Virus record (IMG/VR): IMGVR_UViG_3300017917_002836
Span: 1 to 42,738 of that record
Source: a virus
Reading direction: 5' to 3' (one strand)
Length of the DNA stretch: 42,738 nt
The translations under genes were made by a program, and so were the position numbers. The notes beneath the pieces were generated by a model that saw only the letters and a program-made list of their open reading frames with translations, did not search any database and was not told the origin of the DNA. The first letter of the stretch is position 1; the number at the start of each line of letters is the position of its first letter. Below, in pieces: positions 6,873 through 35,152 of the stretch.

Positions 6873-7637
6873 TTGAGAGACCCGCGAGAGACCGTCGTCG
6901 TCGCGTACCTGCGCCCCGCGCTGGTCCACGGCGCGTTCATGGAATGCCTGATGGACCTCGTGCAGTACGACGCGTCCCTGCACAGGCGCATCGCAGCGCC
7001 CGGAGGCCGACTGTCCTACCAGGCCGGATGCAACCTGAGTACCCCACGCAACGAGGTGGTGCGCCAGTTCCTGGCCTACGGTCAGGCGGACTGGCTGTGG
7101 ATGGTCGACTCGGACATGACGTTCGCGCCGGACGTCGTCGAGCGGCTGCTGGAGTACGCCGACCCGCAGAAGGCGCCGATCGTCGGGGGCCTGTGTTTCG
7201 GGTTCGACGGGCACGGCGACGTGCAGCCGACCCTGTACGGGCTGGTCGAGCATCCCGACCATCCGGGCAACCTGGAGCGGCTGCAGGTGGTCCGCTACCA
7301 CGAGTGGAAGCCCGATGCGATGTACCAGGTGGCCGGTACCGGCGCGGCCTGCCTGCTGATGCACCGGTCGGCGCTGGTGCGCATCCGCGACTTCGAGCGC
7401 CCGTCCGGTGAGGTCGGGTTCAACCCGGCCTACCCGTGGTTCCAGGAGTCCCAGCACGACGGCCGCCCGGTCGGCGAGGACATCACGTTCTGCTGGCGGG
7501 CGATCCAGGCCGGCCTCCCGGTCTACGTCAACACCGCCGTGCAGTGCGGCCACGTCAAGGACCGCGTGCTGACCATGGATGCCTACTTCCTGGCGAGGGG
7601 CCTGCTCTCGCCCACTCATCAGGGAGCGTCGTCATGA
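6873..7637 (+). CDS. GT-A fold glycosyltransferase
   Basis: A 254-residue enzyme with a family 2-like nucleotide-sugar transferase layout: a first beta strand (VVVAYLRPA), TPRN before the long helix, and the metal-binding DSD at 79-81 in WLWMVDSDMTF. An acceptor-side GEDITFCWRA lies near 205. TTG start with GGGAGACGA upstream. It is the first gene of a five-gene cassette inserted between capsid and head-tail connector genes, so the acceptor is probably a virion protein. The donor sugar and linkage cannot be read from sequence. Confidence 0.85.
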   Translation: MRDPRETVVVAYLRPALVHGAFMECLMDLVQYDASLHRRIAAPGGRLSYQAGCNLSTPRNEVVRQFLAYGQADWLWMVDSDMTFAPDVVERLLEYADPQKAPIVGGLCFGFDGHGDVQPTLYGLVEHPDHPGNLERLQVVRYHEWKPDAMYQVAGTGAACLLMHRSALVRIRDFERPSGEVGFNPAYPWFQESQHDGRPVGEDITFCWRAIQAGLPVYVNTAVQCGHVKDRVLTMDAYFLARGLLSPTHQGASS

Positions 7638-7882
7638 CCGCCATCTGCCGCATCACCGGTTTCCTCGGCTACACCACCGCCGACGACCGTCCGGCGCACC
7701 TGCGGGTCGAGGCCGGCCAGGCATTCGCCGACGACGACCAGGTCGTGGTGTCCCGCCCGGACGCGTTCGATGTCCAGCCGGGTCCGGCCACCGACAGCGC
7801 CCCCCAGGAGCAGGAGGCTGTCGAGCCCCGCCGCGGCACCGCCCGCCCCGCCACCAAGAGGTCGAGGGGTGGCAATGGCTGA
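7634..7882 (+). CDS. Small conserved-type phage protein
   Basis: An 82-residue protein whose ATG overlaps the preceding stop (ATGA). The N-terminus contains a beta-rich segment (MTAICRITGFLGYTT) and a DDDQVVVSRPDAFDV motif resembling small head proteins found after the capsid in other actinophages. The C-terminal third is Pro/Arg-rich and disordered. Its last 8 nt overlap the next gene. It may be a head accessory protein left inside the glycosylation cassette; function unknown. Confidence 0.65.
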   Translation: MTAICRITGFLGYTTADDRPAHLRVEAGQAFADDDQVVVSRPDAFDVQPGPATDSAPQEQEAVEPRRGTARPATKRSRGGNG

Positions 7883-9176
7883 CCTGGTCGTCATCGTCCC
7901 GTCCCGCGGCCGGCCGCAGGCCGCGCGGGAGCTGGCGCAGGCGTTCGTCGAGACCTGCACCGCGGATACGCGGCTGGTGTTCGCCGTCGACGACGACGAT
8001 CCGGACCTTCCCGGGTACCGGGAGGTGCTGTCCGAGTACCGCACCGCGCCGATCGCCGTCGAGGTGTGCATCGCCAACAACGACGACCACACGATGGTGT
8101 GCGCGCTCAACAAGGTCGCCCTGGCGCTGGTCAACATCTACCGCCCGGCCCCGTACGCGCTCGGTTTCCTCGGCGACGACCACCGTCCGCGCACCCGCGG
8201 TTGGGACCAGCGATACCTGGATGTCCTGCGGGAGCTGGGGACCGGCATCGTCTACGGCAACGACCTGCTGCAGGGCGACCGCCTACCGACGCAGGCCGCG
8301 ATGACGGCCGACATCGTCGCCGCGCTCGGATACATGGCGCCGCCTGGGCTGCGGCACATGTACGTGGACAACTTCTGGCGCGACGTCGGCCAGGCGGCCG
8401 GGTGCCTGCGGTACCTGCCGGACGTGATCGTCGAGCATCTGCACCCGGTGGCCGGCAAGGCCGCCGTGGATGAGGGCTACGCCCGGGTCAACGCCCCAGC
8501 CGTGTACGCCGCAGACGAGGCGGCGTACACGGTGTACCGCAGCACCCGGCTCGCCGCCGACGCCGCGGTGGTGGCCGGGCTGGCCGGCCGCCACCAGCAC
8601 GAGTGGCGGCTGTTCGAGCCCAACACCACGCCGGAGTGCACCACGCCAGAGTGGTACGCCGACCGTGAGCACGCCCCACACCTGGAGGACGGGCACCGCC
8701 CGCGACTGCAGGCCGCGGCCTCGCTGGTGGCGCAGGCGGCGATCACGCTCGACGCCGCCACGGTGGTCGACCTCGGGGCGGGTGACGGCGGCCTGCTGAG
8801 TCTGCTCGGGCCGGCCCTGACGGCATGGGGCTACGACCTGCAGCCGACCAACATCGCCGCCGCCGCGGGCCGCGGTGTCGACGTGCGGTACGGCGACGTG
8901 CTCGCCGACGACGTCGAATGGGGCCAGATCGCGGTGTGCACGGAGATGCTGGAGCATCTCGTGGACCCGCACGGCCTGGTGCGCCGGATCGGTGAGCGCG
9001 CCCAGGCGCTGGTGTGCTCGTCGCCGCGGGACGAACGGCCCGGTGCCGCGTACGAGCATCACTGCTGGGCGTGGGACATGCCCGGCTACCGGGCGATGGT
9101 CGAGGCGGGCGGCTGGAGCGTCATCCGGCACATGCCGGTGGGCCGGTTCCAGGTTCTGCTGGCAGTGCGGTCGTGA
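7875..9176 (+). CDS. Bifunctional glycosyltransferase-methyltransferase fusion
   Basis: A 433-residue two-domain protein. Residues 1-230 are a GT-A-like transferase (LVVIVPSRGRP start, GDDH at 100-103 as the likely metal site, EHLHPVAGKAAVDEGY near 187-202). Residues ~255-433 are a class I SAM methyltransferase with motif I VVDLGAGDGG at 297-306 and a conserved VCTEMLEHL at 354-362. The second domain resembles the separate methyltransferase encoded next. The fusion suggests that one protein both adds a sugar and methylates it, or is coupled to a methylation step. The start overlaps the upstream gene by 8 nt. Confidence 0.85.
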   Translation: MADLVVIVPSRGRPQAARELAQAFVETCTADTRLVFAVDDDDPDLPGYREVLSEYRTAPIAVEVCIANNDDHTMVCALNKVALALVNIYRPAPYALGFLGDDHRPRTRGWDQRYLDVLRELGTGIVYGNDLLQGDRLPTQAAMTADIVAALGYMAPPGLRHMYVDNFWRDVGQAAGCLRYLPDVIVEHLHPVAGKAAVDEGYARVNAPAVYAADEAAYTVYRSTRLAADAAVVAGLAGRHQHEWRLFEPNTTPECTTPEWYADREHAPHLEDGHRPRLQAAASLVAQAAITLDAATVVDLGAGDGGLLSLLGPALTAWGYDLQPTNIAAAAGRGVDVRYGDVLADDVEWGQIAVCTEMLEHLVDPHGLVRRIGERAQALVCSSPRDERPGAAYEHHCWAWDMPGYRAMVEAGGWSVIRHMPVGRFQVLLAVRS

Positions 9177-9727
9177 GGCGGGAGCGGCTTCGCCCGGCCT
9201 ACGGTCCGGGCGAGCTGGTGGCGCTGTACGCGGCCCCGTACGACCATCGCCGCTGGGTGGACCACATCCATCGGGTCAACGCGACGATCGCCGCCGGCCT
9301 GACGCTGCTCGACGGGGAGCTCGCCGGCACTGCGGCGGACCTGTCCTGTGGCGACGGGACGATCCTGCGGGCACTGCCGGCACAGCGGAGGATCTTCGGC
9401 GACCTGGTGTCCAGCTGCGACCTGGACCTGGTCGGTCCGATCGAGGCCACGATCGGCGAGATTGATCCGGTCGACCTGCTGGTGTGCACGGAGACGCTGG
9501 AGCACCTCGACGACCCGGACGGCGTGCTGCAGGCGATTGCAGAGAAGGCCCGAATGCTGCTGCTATCGACGCCGGTCGAGGCGTGGGGCGACGACAACCC
9601 GGAGCACTACTGGGCGTGGGATGCCGAGGAGGTCGAGGATCTGCTGACTGCGGCCGGGTTCACGGTGGTGGACTACCGGCCTCTGCCGCTGTGGTACCGG
9701 TTCGGCATCTGGGGATGTGTCCGGTGA
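9173..9727 (+). CDS. Class I SAM-dependent methyltransferase
   Basis: A 184-residue stand-alone methyltransferase: motif I ADLSCGDG at 55-62, VCTETLEHLDDPDGV at 104-118 and a WAWDAEEVEDLL helix. The VCTExLEH and xxHxWAWD blocks match the C-terminal domain of the upstream fusion, so the two domains are probably paralogues. Start and stop are coupled to both neighbours through GTGA overlaps. A sugar O-methyltransferase is the most likely role from context; methylation of a peptide or small molecule is possible. Confidence 0.82.
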   Translation: MRRERLRPAYGPGELVALYAAPYDHRRWVDHIHRVNATIAAGLTLLDGELAGTAADLSCGDGTILRALPAQRRIFGDLVSSCDLDLVGPIEATIGEIDPVDLLVCTETLEHLDDPDGVLQAIAEKARMLLLSTPVEAWGDDNPEHYWAWDAEEVEDLLTAAGFTVVDYRPLPLWYRFGIWGCVR

Positions 9728-10674
9728 GGGCCCTGGTCACCGGGTCGGCGGGGTTCGTCGGCCGGCACATGGTGGCCGAGCTGGTGGCGCGCGGCTGGGA
9801 CGTCGCCGGGGTCGACCTGCGGCAGTGGTCACCAGTGGCACCGCCGACCGCCGCCGGCGCGGGCCGGTACGCGCACGCCACCGGTGACATGCTCGACGGG
9901 GTCCGGCTTCCCGGCGTCGACACGTTCGATCTTGTGGCGCACTGCGCGTACCACGTCGGCGGCCGGGCCGGAATCGACGGTGAACCCCGCAACCTGGCCC
10001 ACAACCTGCAGCTCGACGCGGCCATGTTCGAATGGGCCGTCCGCACCGGGCAGCGGCGGGTCCTGTACTTCTCCAGCTCAGCTGCGTACCCGACCGTCCT
10101 GCAGACCGGCCACCCGCCCCGACAGCTCGCAGAGGACGATCTCGATCTTTGGGGAGTACGCCCAGATGCCCGGTACGGGTGGGCGAAGGTGACCGGCGAG
10201 CACCTCGCCCAGGCCGCCGCAGAGTCGGGCCTGCCGGTACACGTCGTCCGGCCGTTCTCCGGCTACGGTGAGAACCAGGACGACTGCTACCCGTTCCCCG
10301 CGATCGTGAGGCGCGCGCTGGCCGGCGATTTCACCGTGTGGGGACCACCAGGCCAATGCCGGGACTGGATCCACATCTCGGACGTTGTGCGCGGCGCCCT
10401 GGCCGTCGTCGACGCCGACGAGCGGCGGCCGGTCAACCTGTGCTCCGGCAGTCCGGTCGAGTTCGGCGTCCTCGCGCTCCGGGTCGCCGAGCTGGCCGCC
10501 CTGGTGTCGCCGGACAGGCCGTGGCCGGACGTCGAGTACCGCGAGGACCGGCCGACCGGGGTCATGTACCGGGTGGGCGATCCGGCCAGGATGCGCGAGC
10601 ACTACACCCCGGCCGTGCCCCTCGACGAGGGGATCCGGCGAGCGATCGAGCACGTCCGGGGAGGGCCGGCATGA
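9724..10674 (+). CDS. NAD-dependent sugar epimerase/dehydratase (extended SDR)
   Basis: A 316-residue extended short-chain dehydrogenase. The Rossmann motif TGSAGFVG lies at 6-13, the catalytic YGWAK (Tyr151, Lys155) is present, SSSAAYP near 117-123 supplies the Ser/Thr, and RDWIHISDVVRG lies at 213-224, as in GDP-fucose synthase and NDP-sugar epimerases. It would make the nucleotide sugar used by the adjacent transferases. It is coupled by GTGA upstream and ATGA downstream to the connector gene, so the cassette is transcribed with the virion genes. Confidence 0.88.
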   Translation: MRALVTGSAGFVGRHMVAELVARGWDVAGVDLRQWSPVAPPTAAGAGRYAHATGDMLDGVRLPGVDTFDLVAHCAYHVGGRAGIDGEPRNLAHNLQLDAAMFEWAVRTGQRRVLYFSSSAAYPTVLQTGHPPRQLAEDDLDLWGVRPDARYGWAKVTGEHLAQAAAESGLPVHVVRPFSGYGENQDDCYPFPAIVRRALAGDFTVWGPPGQCRDWIHISDVVRGALAVVDADERRPVNLCSGSPVEFGVLALRVAELAALVSPDRPWPDVEYREDRPTGVMYRVGDPARMREHYTPAVPLDEGIRRAIEHVRGGPA

Positions 10675-22899: not shown

Positions 22900-24900
22900 T
22901 TACGGCCGATGGACGTACGTACTACCATCGCCGCGGTCCAGGGCACCCACCTCGACCAGCTGGCGCAGCAGGTCCTGCCGGGTCTGACGGGCGACGTCAA
23001 CACCACGCTCCGCCAGCTGCCGGCCGATCTGACCTGACGTCAGACCGGCCGGGTACGCGTCGCGGACGATCCCGATGATCCGCTCTCTCGTGGTCTCCTG
23101 TCGGGTCTGCGTCGCCACGACGCCCGCCACCTGCTGCGGGTCCACGGTTGACGGGCGGTCGGCGACGATGCCGGTACCGAGGAGCAGCGCCTCACGGGCG
23201 CTGCCGGCCGGGGCCACGGTCGGCTGGTCAACCGCCGGCGGTGCAGCAACCGGCGCCGGCGCCGGCTCCTCGCCGCGCATCTCGGCCAGCTTCGGCGCGT
23301 ACCGGTCCCACCGTCCGGCGTACGCCCGGCCGGCGGCGACATCCCGCATCGTCGGATGCCGTGCGATGTCGATGTGGTCGCGCGGGTCGCGGCCACCGAG
23401 GACCGCGGACACGGTGAGCTGCGCCGCGACCTGCTGGGCACGTGCGTCGAGCCGCGGACGGTACCGCGCTGTGGCAACCGCGTGCCGTTCGAGGATCTCC
23501 GGCGGCACGTCCGCGGACCGGGCGAGCCGCGGGCGCTGACCGATATTCGTGATGATCCATCCGGATCCTCGGTGCCGCAGCCGGGTCGACGGCGGGGTGA
23601 CCCCGAGAATGTGCGCGTACTCGTCCTGCTCGGTCATCGTCAGACAGACCCTGATCGCTGCGACGATCCGCAGCCCTTTGTCGAGCAGGTCTGCGGTGCC
23701 GCGCAGCACGCTGATGATGGCCCGGCCGCCGACCTCGCGCCCGATCTGTGCGTACGAGGACAGTCCGTCGCGGATGGCCGCGCCGAGCAGGGCTGTCGCC
23801 TTGCCGATCTCGCCGCCCTCGTCGCCGATCACGACGATCGCGGGCAGCTCCTCGTCGAGCGGCAGCGTGTTGGTGCGATGCTCCCGCCGCCGGCGGATGG
23901 CCTCGGCAGAGGTCTTGCGGTCCCGTGCGACCGCCAGCGCTGTCGCGATCATGACGGCGCCCTCGTACTCGTCGCCCGCCACCCAGTCCACGACCGGCTG
24001 GGTGGCGTCGCCGCGGGCCCACGGCTCGACGAGCGGGACGGCCAGGCCGCCACCGTTGAGGTCGATGACCCAGACGAGGGCGTCCCGGCACCGGGCGAGG
24101 TGCATGATGACCCGCCGGAGCAGCGTGGTCTTGCCCATGTCCGGGGCGCCGCCGAGCACCATCGACAGCAGGCGCAGGCAGATCGTGACCGGGTTGCCGC
24201 GGGCGTCGTGCATCACCGCGAACTCGTCGTAGATTGATGCCGGGCCGGTTGGCTCCTCGACGGTCCGGGTCTCTGCGAGGCAGTCGCGGAGCATCACGTC
24301 GAGGACCGCCGCCCCCTGGTGCGGGCCCTCCTCGGCGCTCACGGTGCATCCGGGCGGCAGCTTCAGCGCTCCGGCGATGGCGTCACAGCGCAGGCTGAGC
24401 GCGTGCAGTGTCATCCCGTTGAGGTCGAGGTGGTACCTGACGCCGTCCCTCTTGCGGCCCGGCCAGGGCTCGATGTCCGTGAGCTCGATCTTGCCGCCCG
24501 CGGCCGGCTGGAGTAGCGACTCAACCTCCTGGATCCTCCGTGGCCGGGCCAGGTCGACACCGTCCGCGCGGGGCAGCAGCATCGACGCGACCGCGGCGAC
24601 AAGGGCGGAGACCGCCAGGTCGGCGACGGCCTCCCGGGTCCATCCGTGGGTGACGACCCACGATGCCCACAGTCCACATCCGGCCAGCCACGCGGCGAGA
24701 CCTGTGGCACGCCACCGGTGGGCACGGTTGCGGACGGCAACGAGCGTCAGGACACCGGCGACTGCCAGCCCGGCCGCGGCAGGCCACCACCAGGGCAGGG
24801 CTGCGATATCGGCGGCGAGCCCTACCGCGACCGCGGCGAGCATCGTCGCACCGACCACATACGGCGCGTTCCATCCGGGCTCGTGCTGATGCTGATGCAT
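22900..24900 (-). CDS. Membrane-anchored FtsK/TraB-like DNA translocase
   Basis: A 666-residue protein. Four membrane segments occupy about 14-34, 38-56, 67-84 and 92-110. The ATPase core has Walker A GAPDMGKTT (251-259) and Walker B-like IVVIGDEGGE (355-364). A Pro/Ala linker around 525-545 leads to a C-terminal winged-helix domain (RERIIGIVRDA...LTSGQIGRQLAERG) similar to the DNA-reading gamma domain. This is the layout of the septal translocases that move double-stranded DNA between mycelial cells in Streptomyces plasmids and AICEs. GAGGTGA precedes the ATG. It could instead help phage DNA segregation. Confidence 0.88.
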   Translation of the reverse strand: MHQHQHEPGWNAPYVVGATMLAAVAVGLAADIAALPWWWPAAAGLAVAGVLTLVAVRNRAHRWRATGLAAWLAGCGLWASWVVTHGWTREAVADLAVSALVAAVASMLLPRADGVDLARPRRIQEVESLLQPAAGGKIELTDIEPWPGRKRDGVRYHLDLNGMTLHALSLRCDAIAGALKLPPGCTVSAEEGPHQGAAVLDVMLRDCLAETRTVEEPTGPASIYDEFAVMHDARGNPVTICLRLLSMVLGGAPDMGKTTLLRRVIMHLARCRDALVWVIDLNGGGLAVPLVEPWARGDATQPVVDWVAGDEYEGAVMIATALAVARDRKTSAEAIRRRREHRTNTLPLDEELPAIVVIGDEGGEIGKATALLGAAIRDGLSSYAQIGREVGGRAIISVLRGTADLLDKGLRIVAAIRVCLTMTEQDEYAHILGVTPPSTRLRHRGSGWIITNIGQRPRLARSADVPPEILERHAVATARYRPRLDARAQQVAAQLTVSAVLGGRDPRDHIDIARHPTMRDVAAGRAYAGRWDRYAPKLAEMRGEEPAPAPVAAPPAVDQPTVAPAGSAREALLLGTGIVADRPSTVDPQQVAGVVATQTRQETTRERIIGIVRDAYPAGLTSGQIGRQLAERGVDVARQTRQDLLRQLVEVGALDRGDGSTYVHRP

Positions 24901-24925
24901 CTCGGGTCACCTCGCGGGTTGTTGG

Positions 24926-24957
24926 CCGGCCCCGGAGTGTCGACACTCCGGGGCCGG
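24926..24957. repeat. 32-bp perfect palindrome between SpdB-like and FtsK-like genes
   Basis: The left arm CCGGCCCCGGAGTGTC is followed by its exact complement with no loop; the centre is GTCGAC. It lies 25 bp before the translocase start and 13 bp after the upstream stop. It may be a terminator or attenuator that sets translocase levels, or a cruciform-type binding site. Confidence 0.75.
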
Positions 24958-24970
24958 TGGGGGGACTGGC

Positions 24971-26275
24971 TCAGGTGTCCGCCTGGCCGGCGGCGACGTC
25001 GGCACGCTTCTCTGCGTCAACGCCGCCCCGGCGACCGGTGAGCCGGGCCTCGTCGTCGGCGTGTGCTGCCCGGTACTTGCCGGGTAGGGCCTCAGCCTCG
25101 GCTGCGAGCCGTGCGAGCTTCGCCGAGTATGGGTTGGACAGGAGAGTGCCCAGCTTGGACTTGATCGACTCGATCTCGGCGACAAGGGCCTTGTCCGCGG
25201 GCAGCTCGGAGTCTGCCTGCGTGGCGAGCTGCTGCAACCCTCTGACCGTCGCGGCGAGCTGCTCTTCGTGCCTGCGGACCTCGGCTGCGTGCTCGCTGAG
25301 CGCCTCGGAGACTTTCGGTAGGTTCCGCCCAAATCGGAACAGTGACGCACCTTCGGTATACATGCTGTCTCCCTTCGGCCGCCCTGCCGGCGGCGGTTGT
25401 ATGAACGCGGCCTGCTGGTCGCGCGTGCTGGTCGCTGATGCCGGTTTGTCGCCGTCGCGGCCCGGTTTCGGTTTCCCATCGGCGGACCGGGCGCGCTTTC
25501 CGTCGGCAGCCTGGGCGCGCCTCTCGGCGCGGCGCCGCTGCCGCTCGGCATCGTCATCCATCGCAGCGTCGAGGCCCGCCCGACCTTGGTCCCACAGGGT
25601 CTTCCACCACGGCTGGCCGGCCTTCCCGCTCTTGCTCTTGGCGTTCTTGCCGCGACCGCCGCCGAACGGCCACCAGGAGCCGCCGGTACCCCAACCGCCT
25701 TTCAGCCCTTTTCCGCCGCCACCGGTGCCCCGGCCGCCGAGCAGCTTGCCGAGCGGTCCGCCTTTCCCGGTCCTGCCGCCGCCACCGCCGGCGCCAGCGG
25801 TCCTACCGGCACCCTTGCCCCGGCCGCCGAGCAGCTTGCCGAGTGCGCCCCGCCCGGGACTCCCTGACCCTCCACCTACGCCCTTGCCGCGACCGCCGCC
25901 GAGCAGGCGCGACAGCGGACCACCCTTGCCACCACCGGCCGGGCCGGTCCGGCTGGTCTTGCTGGACGTGCGGCTCGCGGTGCCGCCACGCCCGGGGAAG
26001 AGCGCGCCGAGGATCCGATCGAGCAGGCCGCCCTTACCTTTGCGGCGCCACGCGAGGATGCCGCACCACGCCACGATCCCGAGTGCGGCGTTGGCGACGA
26101 GCCACCACAGCCACCCGAGCAGGGCATACGCGGCAAGCTCGACAACGACCACCAGGAGCACGGTGCAGACGACGACCGGGGGGCGTTGCAGCCATGCCGG
26201 GGTACGTGGCCGGCGGCGCCGCGGCGCTGGCGGCTGGGTGCCGCCGGGCTGCTGCTGGGTGGTTGGCTGCGCCAT
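24971..26275 (-). CDS. SpdB-like Gly/Lys-rich membrane protein
   Basis: A 434-residue protein. It begins with a Pro/Arg-rich cytoplasmic tail, then two membrane segments (about 34-54 and 56-75). A long Gly/Lys/Arg region from ~80 to ~215 contains at least three copies of a unit like KGGPLGKLLGGRG. The C-terminal ~120 residues form a coiled coil (SEALSEHAAEVRRHEEQLAATVRGL). This is the style of the spread proteins that accompany TraB in actinomycete plasmids and help intramycelial DNA spread. GGAGGGAGC precedes the ATG. Confidence 0.72.
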   Translation of the reverse strand: MAQPTTQQQPGGTQPPAPRRRRPRTPAWLQRPPVVVCTVLLVVVVELAAYALLGWLWWLVANAALGIVAWCGILAWRRKGKGGLLDRILGALFPGRGGTASRTSSKTSRTGPAGGGKGGPLSRLLGGGRGKGVGGGSGSPGRGALGKLLGGRGKGAGRTAGAGGGGGRTGKGGPLGKLLGGRGTGGGGKGLKGGWGTGGSWWPFGGGRGKNAKSKSGKAGQPWWKTLWDQGRAGLDAAMDDDAERQRRRAERRAQAADGKRARSADGKPKPGRDGDKPASATSTRDQQAAFIQPPPAGRPKGDSMYTEGASLFRFGRNLPKVSEALSEHAAEVRRHEEQLAATVRGLQQLATQADSELPADKALVAEIESIKSKLGTLLSNPYSAKLARLAAEAEALPGKYRAAHADDEARLTGRRGGVDAEKRADVAAGQADT

Positions 26276-26304
26276 GATGCTCCCTCCGTCGTGACGCTGC
26301 GTAA

Positions 26305-26420
26305 TGTCAGGTGTCAGGTGTCAGCCCCCTGACTGTCAGGGGGCTGACACCTGCGTTGACCACGGCGAGACTCCGGGGGCGGTTATGGCGTCAGGGGGTG
26401 TCACCCCCTGACACCTGACA
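26305..26420. repeat. TGTCAGG tandem and inverted repeat cluster with 18-bp hairpin
   Basis: TGTCAGG occurs in tandem at 26305 and 26312 (third, TGTCAGC, at 26319); two inverse copies CCTGACA lie at 26407 and 26414. Between them CAGGTGTCAGCCCCCTGA (26315-26332) pairs perfectly with 26336-26353 over a 3-nt loop, and TCAGGGGGTG (26391-26400) pairs with CACCCCCTGA (26402-26411). The cluster overlaps the 3' end of a small leftward gene. It may be a terminator, but repeat number and symmetry resemble a cis-acting locus beside spd and tra genes. Confidence 0.75.
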
Positions 26421-26671
26421 CCGCTTCCGCTACTCGCAGTGACCGCGGCGGGGGGTGCTGCCCACGGGCTGACGCGTTCGGCGAGCAGCTCACCGAGGCG
26501 CTCACCGAACGCGAGCGCCTGCTCGTCGGGCAGGCCGAGGATGCGCGCCGCGCCGCATGTGCGAGTAATGGCGGCGGCAGCCTGAGCGGTCTCCTCGAGA
26601 TCCGTGAAGGTCACGGGCGTCACGCTTGCCAGCTCGACGTCGTCGCGCTGGGCGATGGCGGTAAGGGACAC
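26336..26671 (-). CDS. Small hypothetical protein in the transfer-like operon
   Basis: A 111-residue protein, GTG start with GAGGAG about 7 bp upstream. N-terminal region SLTAIAQRDDVELASVTPVTFTDL is followed by a helical LEETAQAAAAITRTCGAARI...ALAFGERLGELLAER; the C-terminal ~35 residues are low-complexity and coincide with the repeat cluster. Family not recognised. It lies between the DUF2637 and SpdB-like genes and was probably extended into the repeats. Confidence 0.6.
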   Translation of the reverse strand: MSLTAIAQRDDVELASVTPVTFTDLEETAQAAAAITRTCGAARILGLPDEQALAFGERLGELLAERVSPWAAPPAAVTASSGSGVRCQGVTPPDAITAPGVSPWSTQVSAP

Positions 26672-26737
26672 TGGGGGCTCCTCTTGTAGGTGGCGGGGGC
26701 GGCGGTCTTGTCGGGCGCGACGCCCCCGCATATCGAG

Positions 26738-27637
26738 TCAGTTGCTGGCGGCTACCGCTGTGCCGTTGATGCGGTCGTGCGTAGTGGCGGTCATCTGTCG
26801 AGCACGGCGGGCGGCGGGCAGGTACCGCTCGACGGTCCGCACCGAGCGGCCCGCCATCTCGGCGATCTGCTCGGCTGTCGCGTCGGGATGACGTCGATGA
26901 AGGTCTGCCACGATGTCGGCGGTCGACCGACGGTCCGCTAGGTCGCCATGCGTACCGGCGTGGCGGCCGCCAACCGGGTGATGCGCGCCGGCGCCTGACA
27001 GTGTCGGGACGGCCGCTAGCGCGACGGTAGGGCGCCACTGGGCTGTCGGAGCAACGGCGTGACTGGCGTCCTCTGCGGCGTCCGCCTCGTCGTCGCCGGA
27101 GGCCGTTTCGTCCCGTCGGTCCGCCACTTCCGCCACCGACACGGGCGGTGCCTGCGCTGCTAGAGCCATTTCCGGGCTGGCGGCGCCAACCGTGGCGGTC
27201 ACGCGGTCCGCCACGGCGACCGCCAGGACGACGAGCAGGTGCACCGACAGGGCGAGCATGACGGGCGGGATGGCAGATACCGCCATGGCAGCCCGCTCGC
27301 CGAGTGGGTGACCGCCACGTGCGTGCAGCGCGTTGCAGGCGATGGAGATCGCGGCGCCCGACAGGACGACGAGCCACGGGTACGCGGGGCGGCGGCCGAG
27401 CCGACGCAGGACGACGGCCGCCACGGTGGCGACCGACATTGCACCGTCGACCGACAGCGGCATGAGCCATGCCCATGACGGTCGGACGTGCGCGGCGACC
27501 GCCACGGCCCGGATCGCGTCGAAGCTGAGCGTGAATCCGGCGACCGCCACGGCGACGGTTCCGAGGCTCGCGACGGTCCCCGCGACGATCCCCAGGGTGG
27601 TCGTCGCGACCTGGTGCCAGTCGATGCGCGTGGCCAT
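26738..27637 (-). CDS. DUF2637 membrane protein with C-terminal HTH
   Basis: A 299-residue protein. About four membrane segments lie between 10 and 147 (TLGIVAGTVASLGTVAVAVAGF, WLMPLSVDGAMSVATVAAVVL, YPWLVVLSGAAISIA, VMLALSVHLLVVLAVAVA), with the LSFDAIR and PLSVDGAM features of DUF2637, a family common in Streptomyces plasmids and AICEs. The C-terminus (STADIVADLHRRHPDATAEQIAEMAGRSVRTVERYL) is a helix-turn-helix. ATG at 27637 has GAAGGGA upstream; the longer frame is rejected. It may couple membrane location to DNA binding in transfer or plasmid maintenance. Confidence 0.82.
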   Translation of the reverse strand: MATRIDWHQVATTTLGIVAGTVASLGTVAVAVAGFTLSFDAIRAVAVAAHVRPSWAWLMPLSVDGAMSVATVAAVVLRRLGRRPAYPWLVVLSGAAISIACNALHARGGHPLGERAAMAVSAIPPVMLALSVHLLVVLAVAVADRVTATVGAASPEMALAAQAPPVSVAEVADRRDETASGDDEADAAEDASHAVAPTAQWRPTVALAAVPTLSGAGAHHPVGGRHAGTHGDLADRRSTADIVADLHRRHPDATAEQIAEMAGRSVRTVERYLPAARRARQMTATTHDRINGTAVAASN

Positions 27638-27653
27638 ACCGATCCCTTCACTG

Positions 27654-27678
27654 TGTGGGTAATGTGGGCTATGTGGGT
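27654..27678. repeat. Three 9-bp-spaced TGTGGG repeats in divergent promoter region
   Basis: TGTGGGT (27654), TGTGGGC (27663) and TGTGGGT (27672) recur with an exact 9-bp period, 17-41 bp upstream of the DUF2637 start. They lie between that leftward gene and the rightward HTH gene. A regulator of one or both genes, possibly the HTH protein itself, may bind here. Confidence 0.6.
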
Positions 27679-27774
27679 TACACGATAGCGCGTCGAGCCT
27701 CGATCCAGCGAGTAGCCACGATGGTCTGCAACCATGGATCAATCCGTGGGGTACGTGGGCTGGGAGGACTATCG

Positions 27775-28983: not shown

Positions 28984-29820
28984 TCATGGCAGCTCCACGT
29001 GGGCGACGTCCGGCAGAGCCGCCACCCATGTGGCGAGCTCGACGAGCGTGACCTCGGTGTAGACCTGGGTGGAGGTCAGGGACGCGTGACCGAGGGCCTC
29101 CTGGACATGTCGCGTGGAGGCGCCCGCCGCGAGCATCCGGGTGGCAAAACGGTGGCGGAGGCGGTGCAGGCCGCCGGTGACGCCGAGCCGGCTGATCCGG
29201 TACCGGGCGGTGCGCGAGATCCAGTCGGCGTCATCTCGGCCACCGGTGGAGCGCATGACGCTGCCGGCCGGCAGGTCCGCCACCTCTCGCCAGACCGTCG
29301 GATGCATCGGCACGAGCCTGGTTTTCCCGCCCTTTCCGTGCACGAGCAGCGCCTGGTCGGTGATGTCGGCGCCGCAGAGTCGGGCGATCTCGCAGCACCG
29401 CAGTCCTGCCCACGCGGCGAGCACCGCGGCGAGCAGGCACCACCCGGTCGTGCCGCCAATGATCGTGTGCAGCTCGTGCTCGCCGACCGGATGCGGTATG
29501 CCCCGGGGCACGGATGGGGCATCGAACCCGGTCATCGGGTTCCAGTCGAGGTACCCGCCGTCGACTGCCCAGCGGAAGAACCCTGTGATCCGGGCGTGGT
29601 AGGCGCCCCTGGTGGCCTGCGACCACCAGGGTTGGCCGTTGCTGCCACGGCGGCCGAACAGCGTCACGAGCTCCGCCTGGCTGGCGCACTCCAGGCCGAG
29701 GCTCAGCTCCGGTGAGCGGTCCGCGGCGCGGAGGCTGCTCTCGATGCTGCGTAGGGAGCCGCGCCCGAGGGCGCGCAGGTATGCCACGTAGGTGCCGATG
29801 AGATCGTCGTCGTTACCCAT
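28984..29820 (-). CDS. int: Tyrosine recombinase (phage integrase)
   Basis: A 278-residue XerC/D-size integrase. Residues 1-95 form the core-binding SAM-like domain; the catalytic set is complete: Arg141 (AGLRCCEIARL), Lys163/166 (GKGGKTR), His219 and Arg222 (HRLRHRFATRM), His245 (LGHASL) and Tyr254 (TQVYTEV). No N-terminal arm-binding domain. It starts 6 nt after the stop of the repressor gene, with no ribosome site and a hairpin just upstream, so translation is probably coupled. It integrates the phage genome and, with a Xis, excises it. Confidence 0.95.
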   Translation of the reverse strand: MGNDDDLIGTYVAYLRALGRGSLRSIESSLRAADRSPELSLGLECASQAELVTLFGRRGSNGQPWWSQATRGAYHARITGFFRWAVDGGYLDWNPMTGFDAPSVPRGIPHPVGEHELHTIIGGTTGWCLLAAVLAAWAGLRCCEIARLCGADITDQALLVHGKGGKTRLVPMHPTVWREVADLPAGSVMRSTGGRDDADWISRTARYRISRLGVTGGLHRLRHRFATRMLAAGASTRHVQEALGHASLTSTQVYTEVTLVELATWVAALPDVAHVELP

Positions 29821-29821
29821 A

Positions 29822-29854
29822 GCCGATCATGCCGCTACCGTCTGCATGATCGGC
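29822..29854. other. 11-bp inverted repeat at repressor/integrase junction, candidate attP core or translational hairpin
   Basis: GCCGATCATGC (29822-29832) and GCATGATCGGC (29844-29854) are perfect inverted copies around an 11-bp spacer. It covers the last codons and stop of the repressor gene and reaches to within 1 bp of the integrase ATG. Short integrases without an arm domain bind 11-13-bp inverted core arms, though the usual spacer is 6-8 bp. A stem that blocks int translation is the alternative. Confidence 0.5.
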
Positions 29855-30249
29855 ATCGACGGATGGCACCGCGCGGCCCGGCGCGGTCGCCGGTGCGGAT
29901 CCATCCGGACGGCTGAGCTGTCGCCCGACGGAGGTCGTCCGAACGTACCGTCGCCATCGGTACTGGCGGCCGGATCGCGATACCGGGCCGTAACGCGACT
30001 GGCTTGACGGACATCCTCAGGCAGCAGATCGACCACTGCGACGCGAAGCACGCCGGCGATACGCTCAAGGTCATCGGTGTCGAAAGCCGTCTCCCCGGAG
30101 AGTCGGCGCCAGACGTAGGTCTGGCTCTTACCCAATGCCCTAGCCAGGGCGCTCGCACTCATCCGCCGTCGCGCCAGAGTTGCGCGGATCTCCTCGGCGA
30201 CCGCCTCACTGAGGGCGGTCCGCTCACCAGACTGGTCCGTCATGCTCAT
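29827..30249 (-). CDS. Xre-family immunity repressor with ssrA-like C-terminus
   Basis: A 140-residue protein. Residues ~12-77 are a lambda repressor-type HTH (RRRMSASALARALGKSQTYVWRRLSGE). About 33 of 64 residues are identical to the Cro-like protein encoded divergently. Residues ~80-140 are an Arg/Pro/Asp-rich tail ending MQTVAA, which resembles ssrA-type degradation tags. The integrase gene follows on the same strand. This is the gene order of integration-dependent immunity in mycobacteriophages, where integration cuts off the tag. ATG at 30249 or 30243. Confidence 0.85.
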   Translation of the reverse strand: MSMTDQSGERTALSEAVAEEIRATLARRRMSASALARALGKSQTYVWRRLSGETAFDTDDLERIAGVLRVAVVDLLPEDVRQASRVTARYRDPAASTDGDGTFGRPPSGDSSAVRMDPHRRPRRAARCHPSMPIMQTVAA

Positions 30250-30373: not shown

Positions 30374-30631
30374 ATGGGCAGGAACGCTTCTCTCGGCGAA
30401 ACATCAAATCGGCAGACGTCGCTGACGGCAGCCGTCGCCGCTGAGGTAAGGGCGGAGATGGGGCGCCGGCGGGTCACTCAGGCGGAACTCGCTGGCGCGC
30501 TCGGTCGGACCCAGCAGTTCGTGAGTCGCCGGGTATCCGGCGAGGTCGCAATGGATACCGACGATATCGATCACATCGCCAGCCATCTCGGAATCAACGC
30601 ACTCGACCTGCTGAGGCGAGCCGCCGCCTGA
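30374..30631 (+). CDS. Cro-like Xre-family regulator
   Basis: An 85-residue HTH protein (RRRVTQAELAGALGRTQQFVSRRVSGEVAMDTDD). About half the HTH-region residues are shared with the divergent repressor, so the pair arose by duplication and should see the same operators. It starts on a leaderless message and ends shortly after the HTH domain (DLLRRAAA), without the tail seen in the repressor. It is the first gene of the early rightward operon and is expected to favour lytic growth. Confidence 0.85.
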   Translation: MGRNASLGETSNRQTSLTAAVAAEVRAEMGRRRVTQAELAGALGRTQQFVSRRVSGEVAMDTDDIDHIASHLGINALDLLRRAAA

Positions 30632-33761: not shown

Positions 33762-34141
33762 CGGCCGCGGCTGCGGTGTGGTCCGCACCGGGCGGCAGTA
33801 GACATGCTCCGGCGGCATCCCAGGTCGCCGCTGGAGCCCAGGAGCCGGAGGGGACGGCCGGCTCCACGGTGGTGGGGGGCCCGCATGGGCACAGCGGGTC
33901 CCCCACCACTGCGACGTCCGTCGCGGCGGGCGGTGCCGCGGCGGACCGTGGGGGCCCCGGCAGGGGTGGCGGGGTCCCCACCGCAGACGCCGCGACCACC
34001 GGGCCGGCGGGGGTTGCAGCCCCTGCCGGTGCCACACCGGCGGTCGCGGCTGCGGCCGGGACGCATTCTCCCGGACCGGCCGTAGCGGAGGGGCCGGTTG
34101 GTCCGGGCCCCTCCACCCCCGCAGCCGGGGGCGCGTCATGA
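33758..34141 (+). CDS. Low-complexity Ala/Gly/Pro-rich protein (doubtful coding)
   Basis: A 127-residue frame, GTGA-coupled upstream and ATGA-coupled downstream, which supports translation. But the product is almost only Ala, Gly, Pro, Thr and Val (GAQEPEGTAGSTVVGGPHG, ATPAVAAAAGTHSPG) with no predicted fold, and its DNA holds six strong hairpins. It may be a disordered linker-like protein or a translated structured spacer. Confidence 0.45.
   Translation: MTAAAAVWSAPGGSRHAPAASQVAAGAQEPEGTAGSTVVGGPHGHSGSPTTATSVAAGGAAADRGGPGRGGGVPTADAATTGPAGVAAPAGATPAVAAAAGTHSPGPAVAEGPVGPGPSTPAAGGAS
33841..34131. repeat. Array of six strong hairpins
   Basis: Stems: 33841-33848/33858-33865 (8 bp); 33869-33884/33894-33909 (16 bp, one G-U, 9-nt loop); 33948-33958/33971-33981 (11 bp, one G-U); 34004-34013/34020-34029 (10 bp, one G-U); 34087-34095/34106-34114 (9 bp); 34116-34121/34126-34131 (6 bp). 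The second and third share GTGGGGG-CCC type arms. Such density exceeds what GC content alone seems to give in neighbouring genes. Possible roles: RNA processing, attenuation or a single-strand origin. Confidence 0.6.
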
Positions 34142-34869
34142 TGCCGGCGGTTGGACGCCGTGCTGCGCGCCAGCAGCAGGAGTGGCGGCAGGCCGGCCGG
34201 ACAGCCGTCCGGATGCTCCGGGCGACCGCCGTGGACCTGGCCGCCGAGCGGGCGGCCCACGCGGCGACCCGTGAGCAGCTCGCCGAGGCGCTGGCGGCCC
34301 TGGCCAGTGCGCGGGCCGACCTGGACGTCGACCCGCTCACCGGCCTGTACACCCGCCGGTGGCTGACAGCGGTCTGGGGCAGCAGCCGACCGCCTGGTCT
34401 GCTGCTGCTCGACCTGGACGGCTTCAAGGCGGTCAACGACCGGTACGGGCACGCCGCCGGCGACGAGGTTCTGGCCACCACCGGCAGGCGCCTGGCGGCG
34501 CAGGACCGCTCTACCGCGGTCCGGCTGCACGGCGACGAGTTCGTCGTGCTGCTGCACGACCGGGCCGATGCCGGTCCGCGACATATCGCCGCCGCCGCAG
34601 CGTGGGTCGCCGGCCTGGTCGCGGCGCCGGTCGCGCTCGCAGGTGAGCGCCTGGTGACCGTCACCGCCTCGGCCGGTGCCGTCATGGTCACCGCTGACGA
34701 CCAGCTGGCGGAGGTGCTGGCGCGGGCCGACCTGGCGATGTACGCGGCCAAGCGGTCCTCGGGCCGGCCGGTCGTGTGGACGGCGAACCTGGAGCCGCCC
34801 GCAGGCGCCGTCTGCGCCCGCCGCGGGGTGAGGGATGCACGGAGAGGAGACGGTAGTAGTGCTGCATGA
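34138..34869 (+). CDS. GGDEF-domain protein (diguanylate cyclase type)
   Basis: A 243-residue protein. A basic, helical coiled-coil start (~1-62, ATREQLAEALAALASARADL) leads into a full GGDEF domain: DPLTGLYTRRW (65-75), LLDLDGFKAVNDRYGHAAGD (90-109), signature HGDEF (131-135) and AMYAAKRSSG near 205. The first Gly of GGDEF is His. The RxxD inhibitory site five residues before it is absent (QDRS). It could make or sense c-di-GMP in the cytoplasm. No membrane segment. Start/stop coupled to both neighbours. Confidence 0.9.
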   Translation: MMPAVGRRAARQQQEWRQAGRTAVRMLRATAVDLAAERAAHAATREQLAEALAALASARADLDVDPLTGLYTRRWLTAVWGSSRPPGLLLLDLDGFKAVNDRYGHAAGDEVLATTGRRLAAQDRSTAVRLHGDEFVVLLHDRADAGPRHIAAAAAWVAGLVAAPVALAGERLVTVTASAGAVMVTADDQLAEVLARADLAMYAAKRSSGRPVVWTANLEPPAGAVCARRGVRDARRGDGSSAA

Positions 34870-35152
34870 CCTGCTGACGGCGCTGGGGATCCTGGCGCTG
34901 CTCGCCGCCACGTTTGGCGTGATCTGCCTCGCGTGGGTGGCGACGTGGCTGACGTCCACCTGGCGCAGCCGCCGACGGGCGGCGGCCGAGTCCCGGGCCG
35001 TGGTACTCCGGGCGGCGCGCCGCTGCGGCGAGGCGGTCACCGCAGCCCATCAGGCCGAGCGGGACCGCGAGTACACCCTGACCGGTCATGGGCGGACGTC
35101 GGACGCACACCTGCGCCACCTGTACGGCCTGGCGCACGGATGGCGCCGGTGA
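34859..35152 (+). CDS. Small membrane protein
   Basis: A 97-residue protein with one long hydrophobic region (~3-35, LHDLLTALGILALLAATFGVICLAWVATWL), then a basic helical tail (SRRRAAAESRAVVLRAARRCGEAV) and LTGHGRTSDAHLRHLYGLAHGW. GTG at 34859 follows GAGAGGAG; ATG at 34835 is the longer alternative. It overlaps the GGDEF gene, so the two may act together, but the link is only by context. Confidence 0.65.
   Translation: MLHDLLTALGILALLAATFGVICLAWVATWLTSTWRSRRRAAAESRAVVLRAARRCGEAVTAAHQAERDREYTLTGHGRTSDAHLRHLYGLAHGWRR

Follow-up and report, generated by a model that had tools for sequence, protein, structure and literature searches.

A probable product-insensitive diguanylate cyclase with an HGDEF signature in a temperate siphovirus of high-GC bacteria

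Described cyclases of phages and mobile elements

Described phage counterparts of the gene reported here are the GGDEF proteins of Bordetella Vojvodinavirus LK3 and FP1, Pseudomonas phage Y10, and Bacillus phages G and SP-15. Lysogens of Bordetella LK3 form more biofilm, the cause of which is not proven (PMC8471281), and the plasmid gene pcdgG of S. venezuelae provides a precedent for cyclases carried by mobile elements (PMC6205966). With regard to the signature motif, the active cyclase VCA0965 of Vibrio cholerae has a degenerate first residue, and Ala (wild type), Gly, Met and His at this position all yield an active enzyme (Hunter et al. 2014; PMC3974145). In cells, its HGDEF form increased c-di-GMP roughly threefold and repressed motility; which residues this position accepts varies by cyclase, and the authors caution that each enzyme follows its own rules (PMC3974145).

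The window, i.e., the whole 42,738-bp virus record analysed here, encodes a 243-aa protein with one GGDEF domain. It shares phage origin with the cyclases named above, which differ in their hosts and mostly match it at 28-44% over part of the domain, while VCA0965 differs as a chromosomal inner-membrane protein that keeps the RxxD motif. The survey of the first signature residue in phage GGDEF proteins gave GGEEF (Y10, SP-15), GGEEM (MaAM05), GGDEF (phage G) and AGDEF (Bordetella FP1), with RxxD retained in Y10, G and SP-15. One viral contig (L010) likewise carries HGDEF and has retained RxxD. Among the named-phage hosts listed, there was no actinophage with a relative of the window protein, and when named phages were searched with a Streptomyces member, the names listed included no actinophage, two further names with one record each lying outside this listing. 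Among actinophages, the gene thus seems to be an uncommon one of a familiar type.

The GGDEF protein and its active site

The gene and the parts of its product are as follows.

34138-34869, plus strand: GGDEF protein; its ATG at 34138 overlaps the upstream frame by ATGA, and a second ATG stands at 34141
34147-34317, plus strand: predicted N-terminal helix, residues 4-60 (AlphaFold2), which could form a stalk or coiled coil for dimerisation
34327-34758, plus strand: GGDEF domain, residues 64-207 (PF00990), with D92, N100, D109, D133, E134 and K205 conserved
34501-34512, plus strand: missing I-site position, with QDRS in place of RxxD in the sequence
34528-34542, plus strand: HGDEF signature, residues 131-135, preceded in the sequence by RL (RL-HGDEF)

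The frame has coding-type bias (GC of 0.81/0.59/0.86 at codon positions 1/2/3), and Pfam recognised PF00990 as the single domain of the protein (E=4.5e-27; 95.2 bits versus a curated cut-off of 23.8), as did NCBIfam with TIGR00254 (E=5e-26; 91.4 bits versus 37.4). The initial annotation of a phage-borne single-domain GGDEF protein with HGDEF and without RxxD is borne out by the frame, the domain and the QDRS at the I-site. Compared with relatives, the usual offset of this feedback-inhibition site holds Q122-D-R-S125 with no RxxD, and the I-site loop has two residues fewer than that of RxxD proteins. In many GGDEF proteins, a missing RxxD is of no special meaning.

In alignment A2, residues D92, N100, D109, G132, D133, E134 and F135 are invariant and K205 is nearly so; by PleD, we take them to make the metal, base, catalytic and phosphate contacts. 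The metal ligands, the catalytic D/E, the base-binding N and D, and the GGDEF fold are all present in the phage protein, and its signature departs from canonical GG(D/E)EF. The base-binding Asp is kept as D109 and not replaced by Ser as in Hypr enzymes, which presumably indicates a GTP enzyme rather than a Ser-bearing cGAMP-type one. The K205-R210 spacing is one residue above the commonest spacing of the relatives.

An AlphaFold2 model built on a 24-sequence alignment (mean pLDDT 86) consists of one helix over residues 4-60, with pLDDT of 79-96 in 10-residue blocks, followed by the GGDEF fold. No membrane helix was detected in the protein (Kyte-Doolittle maximum 0.45), and neither the domain search nor the predicted structure revealed a sensor domain. 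The closest PDB folds to the model were PleD, DgcZ, Dcsbis, SiaD and SadC. SiaD of Pseudomonas aeruginosa, likewise a compact cyclase, aligned over nearly the whole model (228 columns) with a large rmsd of 6-7 Å; it differs in acting together with an activator, SiaC.

By analogy with VCA0965, the HGDEF signature is compatible with activity and does not prove it. The earlier suggestion that His may abolish activity or make the protein a sensor is weakened, because the HGDEF version of VCA0965 is active, the catalytic and binding residues are intact, and there is no I-site for sensing. We consider it unlikely that the protein is degenerate and non-catalytic, a GTP- or c-di-GMP-binding receptor or scaffold partnered by the neighbouring small membrane protein: the first signature residue is altered, and roughly one in four GGDEF domains is degenerate, some being receptors (cited in PMC3974145), but here a single position has changed to a residue that is functional in VCA0965, the metal- and base-binding residues are retained, and the RxxD often used by receptor-type proteins is missing. 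Judged from the sequence, the structural model and the VCA0965 analogue, the gene probably encodes an active single-domain diguanylate cyclase, insensitive to its product and captured by a temperate actinophage. In such an enzyme, the helix 4-60 would bring two subunits together with their GTP-bound half-sites opposed, the His of HGDEF would be tolerated as in the VCA0965 mutant, and the lack of an I-site would keep the cyclase from being shut down by its product.

Position in the phage genome

The source of the record is a phage with TerL, a portal (PF04860) and an HK97-type capsid (PF05065), whose TerL matches actinophage TerLs at ~30-34%, and it is a temperate siphovirus of high-GC bacteria. 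The features that bear on the setting of the GGDEF gene are given below.

22900-24900, minus strand: FtsK/SpoIIIE-like protein (phrog_31069; Streptomyces plasmid FtsK ~29%)
26738-27742, minus strand: DUF2637 (spread-protein-like) membrane protein (PF10935, E=7e-14)
28984-29820, minus strand: tyrosine integrase (PF00589, phrog_1)
29827-30249, minus strand: Cro/C1-type HTH protein, likely repressor (PF01381)
30374-30631, plus strand: Cro-like HTH protein, divergent, at the start of the rightward early region (PF13443)
33762-34137, plus strand: stretch without coding-like codon bias directly upstream of the GGDEF gene, holding an inverted repeat
34835-35152, plus strand: small membrane protein with a single helix (hydrophobicity 2.4 over 19 residues), whose frame overlaps the GGDEF gene

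The GGDEF gene lies in the rightward array, on the same strand and side as the Cro-like gene and opposite the likely repressor and the integrase; therefore, it is fairly taken for a probable early gene, as initially proposed, with strand and side observed and the timing itself deduced from the layout. Should the gene be part of the Cro-side operon, then it would be silent in the lysogen and expressed in infection or induction, and any effect of the GGDEF protein would therefore fall within these phases. The 376 bases 5' of the gene have no coding-type bias (GC of 0.80/0.83/0.77 by codon position) and contain a near-perfect 16-nt inverted repeat (33869-33884 and 33894-33909, with a 9-nt loop), thus the GGDEF gene might head its own transcript. 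A promoter scan of the GGDEF region, which is poorly suited to GC-rich DNA, found none.

The small membrane protein noted earlier as a neighbour is present in frame 34835-35152 with one strongly hydrophobic helix, and the likelier start of this frame is the GTG at 34859, preceded by GGAGAGGAGACGG. The protein had no match above the cut-off in Pfam, NCBIfam or phage families, and no relatives were found in viral contigs.

A cyclase located among probable early genes could also make a product that feeds or fools a defence pathway and leaves host development aside, and cyclic nucleotides are traded by phages and defence systems, e.g., in Panoptes (PMC12657218). We consider such counter-defence highly improbable at this locus, where the PADLOC match to an oligonucleotide cyclase was marginal (E=0.013) and no linked defence gene was recognised.

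Elsewhere in the genome, the minus-strand block of the FtsK/SpoIIIE-like and DUF2637 genes (22900-27742) adjoins the integrase and resembles a plasmid- or AICE-like transfer-type module within a siphovirus. Between the capsid and head-tail genes, positions 6873-10674 hold frames that are glycosyltransferase-, methyltransferase- and NAD-epimerase-like by sequence, an odd cargo for a structural region. The host was sought via a tRNA end; there was no tRNA in the window and no match to a T-arm pattern at the integrase.

Compact GGDEF proteins of actinomycete elements

The plasmid matches from Kitasatospora, Verrucosispora and Streptomyces are short single-domain GGDEF proteins without RxxD. The genomes of 200 Micromonosporaceae and 249 Streptomycetaceae were searched with a profile made from eight compact proteins, the phage protein included, whose top matches were almost all short frames. 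At E≤1e-45, 99 of the 249 Streptomycetaceae genomes matched, an approximate count, as some multi-domain Micromonosporaceae proteins pass this threshold too. RxxD was present in none of the 68 compact mobile-element-type proteins versus 33 of 52 control domains (the other 19 also lack it); the controls were mostly actinomycete chromosomal domains with some viral ones, many of them chosen by similarity to the window. The Fisher value for this difference (2e-16) is overstated, as the sequences are related, all seeds lacked RxxD and many of the controls had been selected for their likeness to the window.

At least two AICE markers (FtsK, DUF2637, SpdB, RepSA and others were counted) lay within ~8 kb at 13 of 40 sampled Streptomycetaceae loci, and any marker was found at 0 of 14 control chromosomal loci. 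The usual gene order is FtsK - DUF2637 - SpdB - DUF6197 or another ORF - GGDEF - small ORF - RepSA - integrase, and the neighbour families were confirmed by profile, RepSA (NF041486) scoring over its cut-off. In many of the loci L232, L235-L245, L247 and L248, the compact GGDEF gene lies within a pSAM2-type AICE core, from FtsK/DUF2637/SpdB to RepSA/integrase. No paper naming both AICE and GGDEF was found in the open-licence literature searched, where this placement is apparently undescribed.

A tblastn search with one plasmid member matched 212 Streptomyces plasmid records at E≤1e-15, including the S. venezuelae plasmid gene vnz_RS37870, the sole place matched on that plasmid. This gene is very probably pcdgG (PMC6205966), and pcdgG appears to belong to the compact group. 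pCdgG and the Streptomyces plasmid and AICE proteins resemble the phage protein in their single GGDEF domain, length (~180-240 aa), mobile-element origin, and lack of both a sensor and RxxD. They differ in having GGDEF instead of HGDEF, with Gly at the first position throughout the Streptomyces clade, and many have a hydrophobic N-terminal segment in contrast to the soluble helix of the phage protein. On two Streptomyces plasmids (L100 8432-10262, L266 4675-6484), the compact GGDEF gene is followed in the same order by a small ORF, a WhiB-type regulator and an Lsr2-type protein, and genes annotated as 'Pycsar system effector family' occur near the compact gene on Streptomyces plasmids at L099 7341-7793 and L100 2481-2948.

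In one Micromonosporaceae clade of 19 compact proteins, the first signature residue is Ser in 16 and Ala in 3. These SGDEF/AGDEF proteins (most of L164-L183, and L101) share with the phage protein a non-Gly first residue and the lack of RxxD, and differ in having mostly an N-terminal membrane helix and, at 18 loci, a conserved 431-aa downstream partner without Pfam or NCBIfam match, which is absent from the phage. No AICE markers were found at the loci of this main clade, FtsK being present only in L173 and L177 of another lineage, and the conserved neighbours are unnamed proteins, so the mobility of these Micromonosporaceae compact loci is putative. Standalone short GGDEF proteins of ~210 aa and AGNNLVARLGGDEF type, without RxxD, are also encoded chromosomally at L256/L257 and other Micromonospora loci, and none of the mobile-element markers tested was found near the L257 gene.

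The phage protein fits the traits of the compact group, i.e., it is short, single-domain, lacks RxxD and resides on a mobile element. The free tree puts it among the chromosomal control domains at the end of a long branch (98/56 with L014); a small third lineage (L096, L173, L177) likewise stands apart. Constraining the phage protein into the main compact clade gave a slightly higher likelihood with an undiscriminating AU test (p=0.59), and its profile scores were 136 bits with the controls versus 108-109 with the compact clades, where the control profile is broader and hence favoured. We therefore do not claim its membership of the main compact clade, and the shared traits may be convergent. 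A match in L012, 17 residues long, was set aside.

The long branch and the control score also suit a passenger, a host cyclase domain gained by recombination, weakly expressed and without phage function, as does the lack of a match to the gene in two related phage contigs (L093/G003, L094/G004). However, both contigs are fragments, and the intact frame with strong codon bias, the complete domain with its key residues and the tight overlap with the downstream neighbour make such a passenger an even less likely explanation than a receptor.

In Streptomyces, BldD bound to c-di-GMP holds back sporulation. An active phage cyclase made with the early genes would raise host c-di-GMP in infection or induction and, if the host is an actinomycete, would plausibly favour effectors of c-di-GMP, e.g., BldD, and delay sporulation during phage replication; compact GGDEF proteins may serve the actinomycete plasmids and integrative elements that carry them likewise, by common descent or convergence. 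More tentatively, several kinds of actinomycete element (pSAM2-type AICEs, linear and circular plasmids, Micromonosporaceae islands and at least one phage) could have acquired or retained, time and again, short cyclases that lack a sensor and feedback control, and could use them routinely to raise host c-di-GMP, delay sporulation and spread through the mycelium. An element or phage that sets c-di-GMP without feedback would steer the timing of host differentiation.
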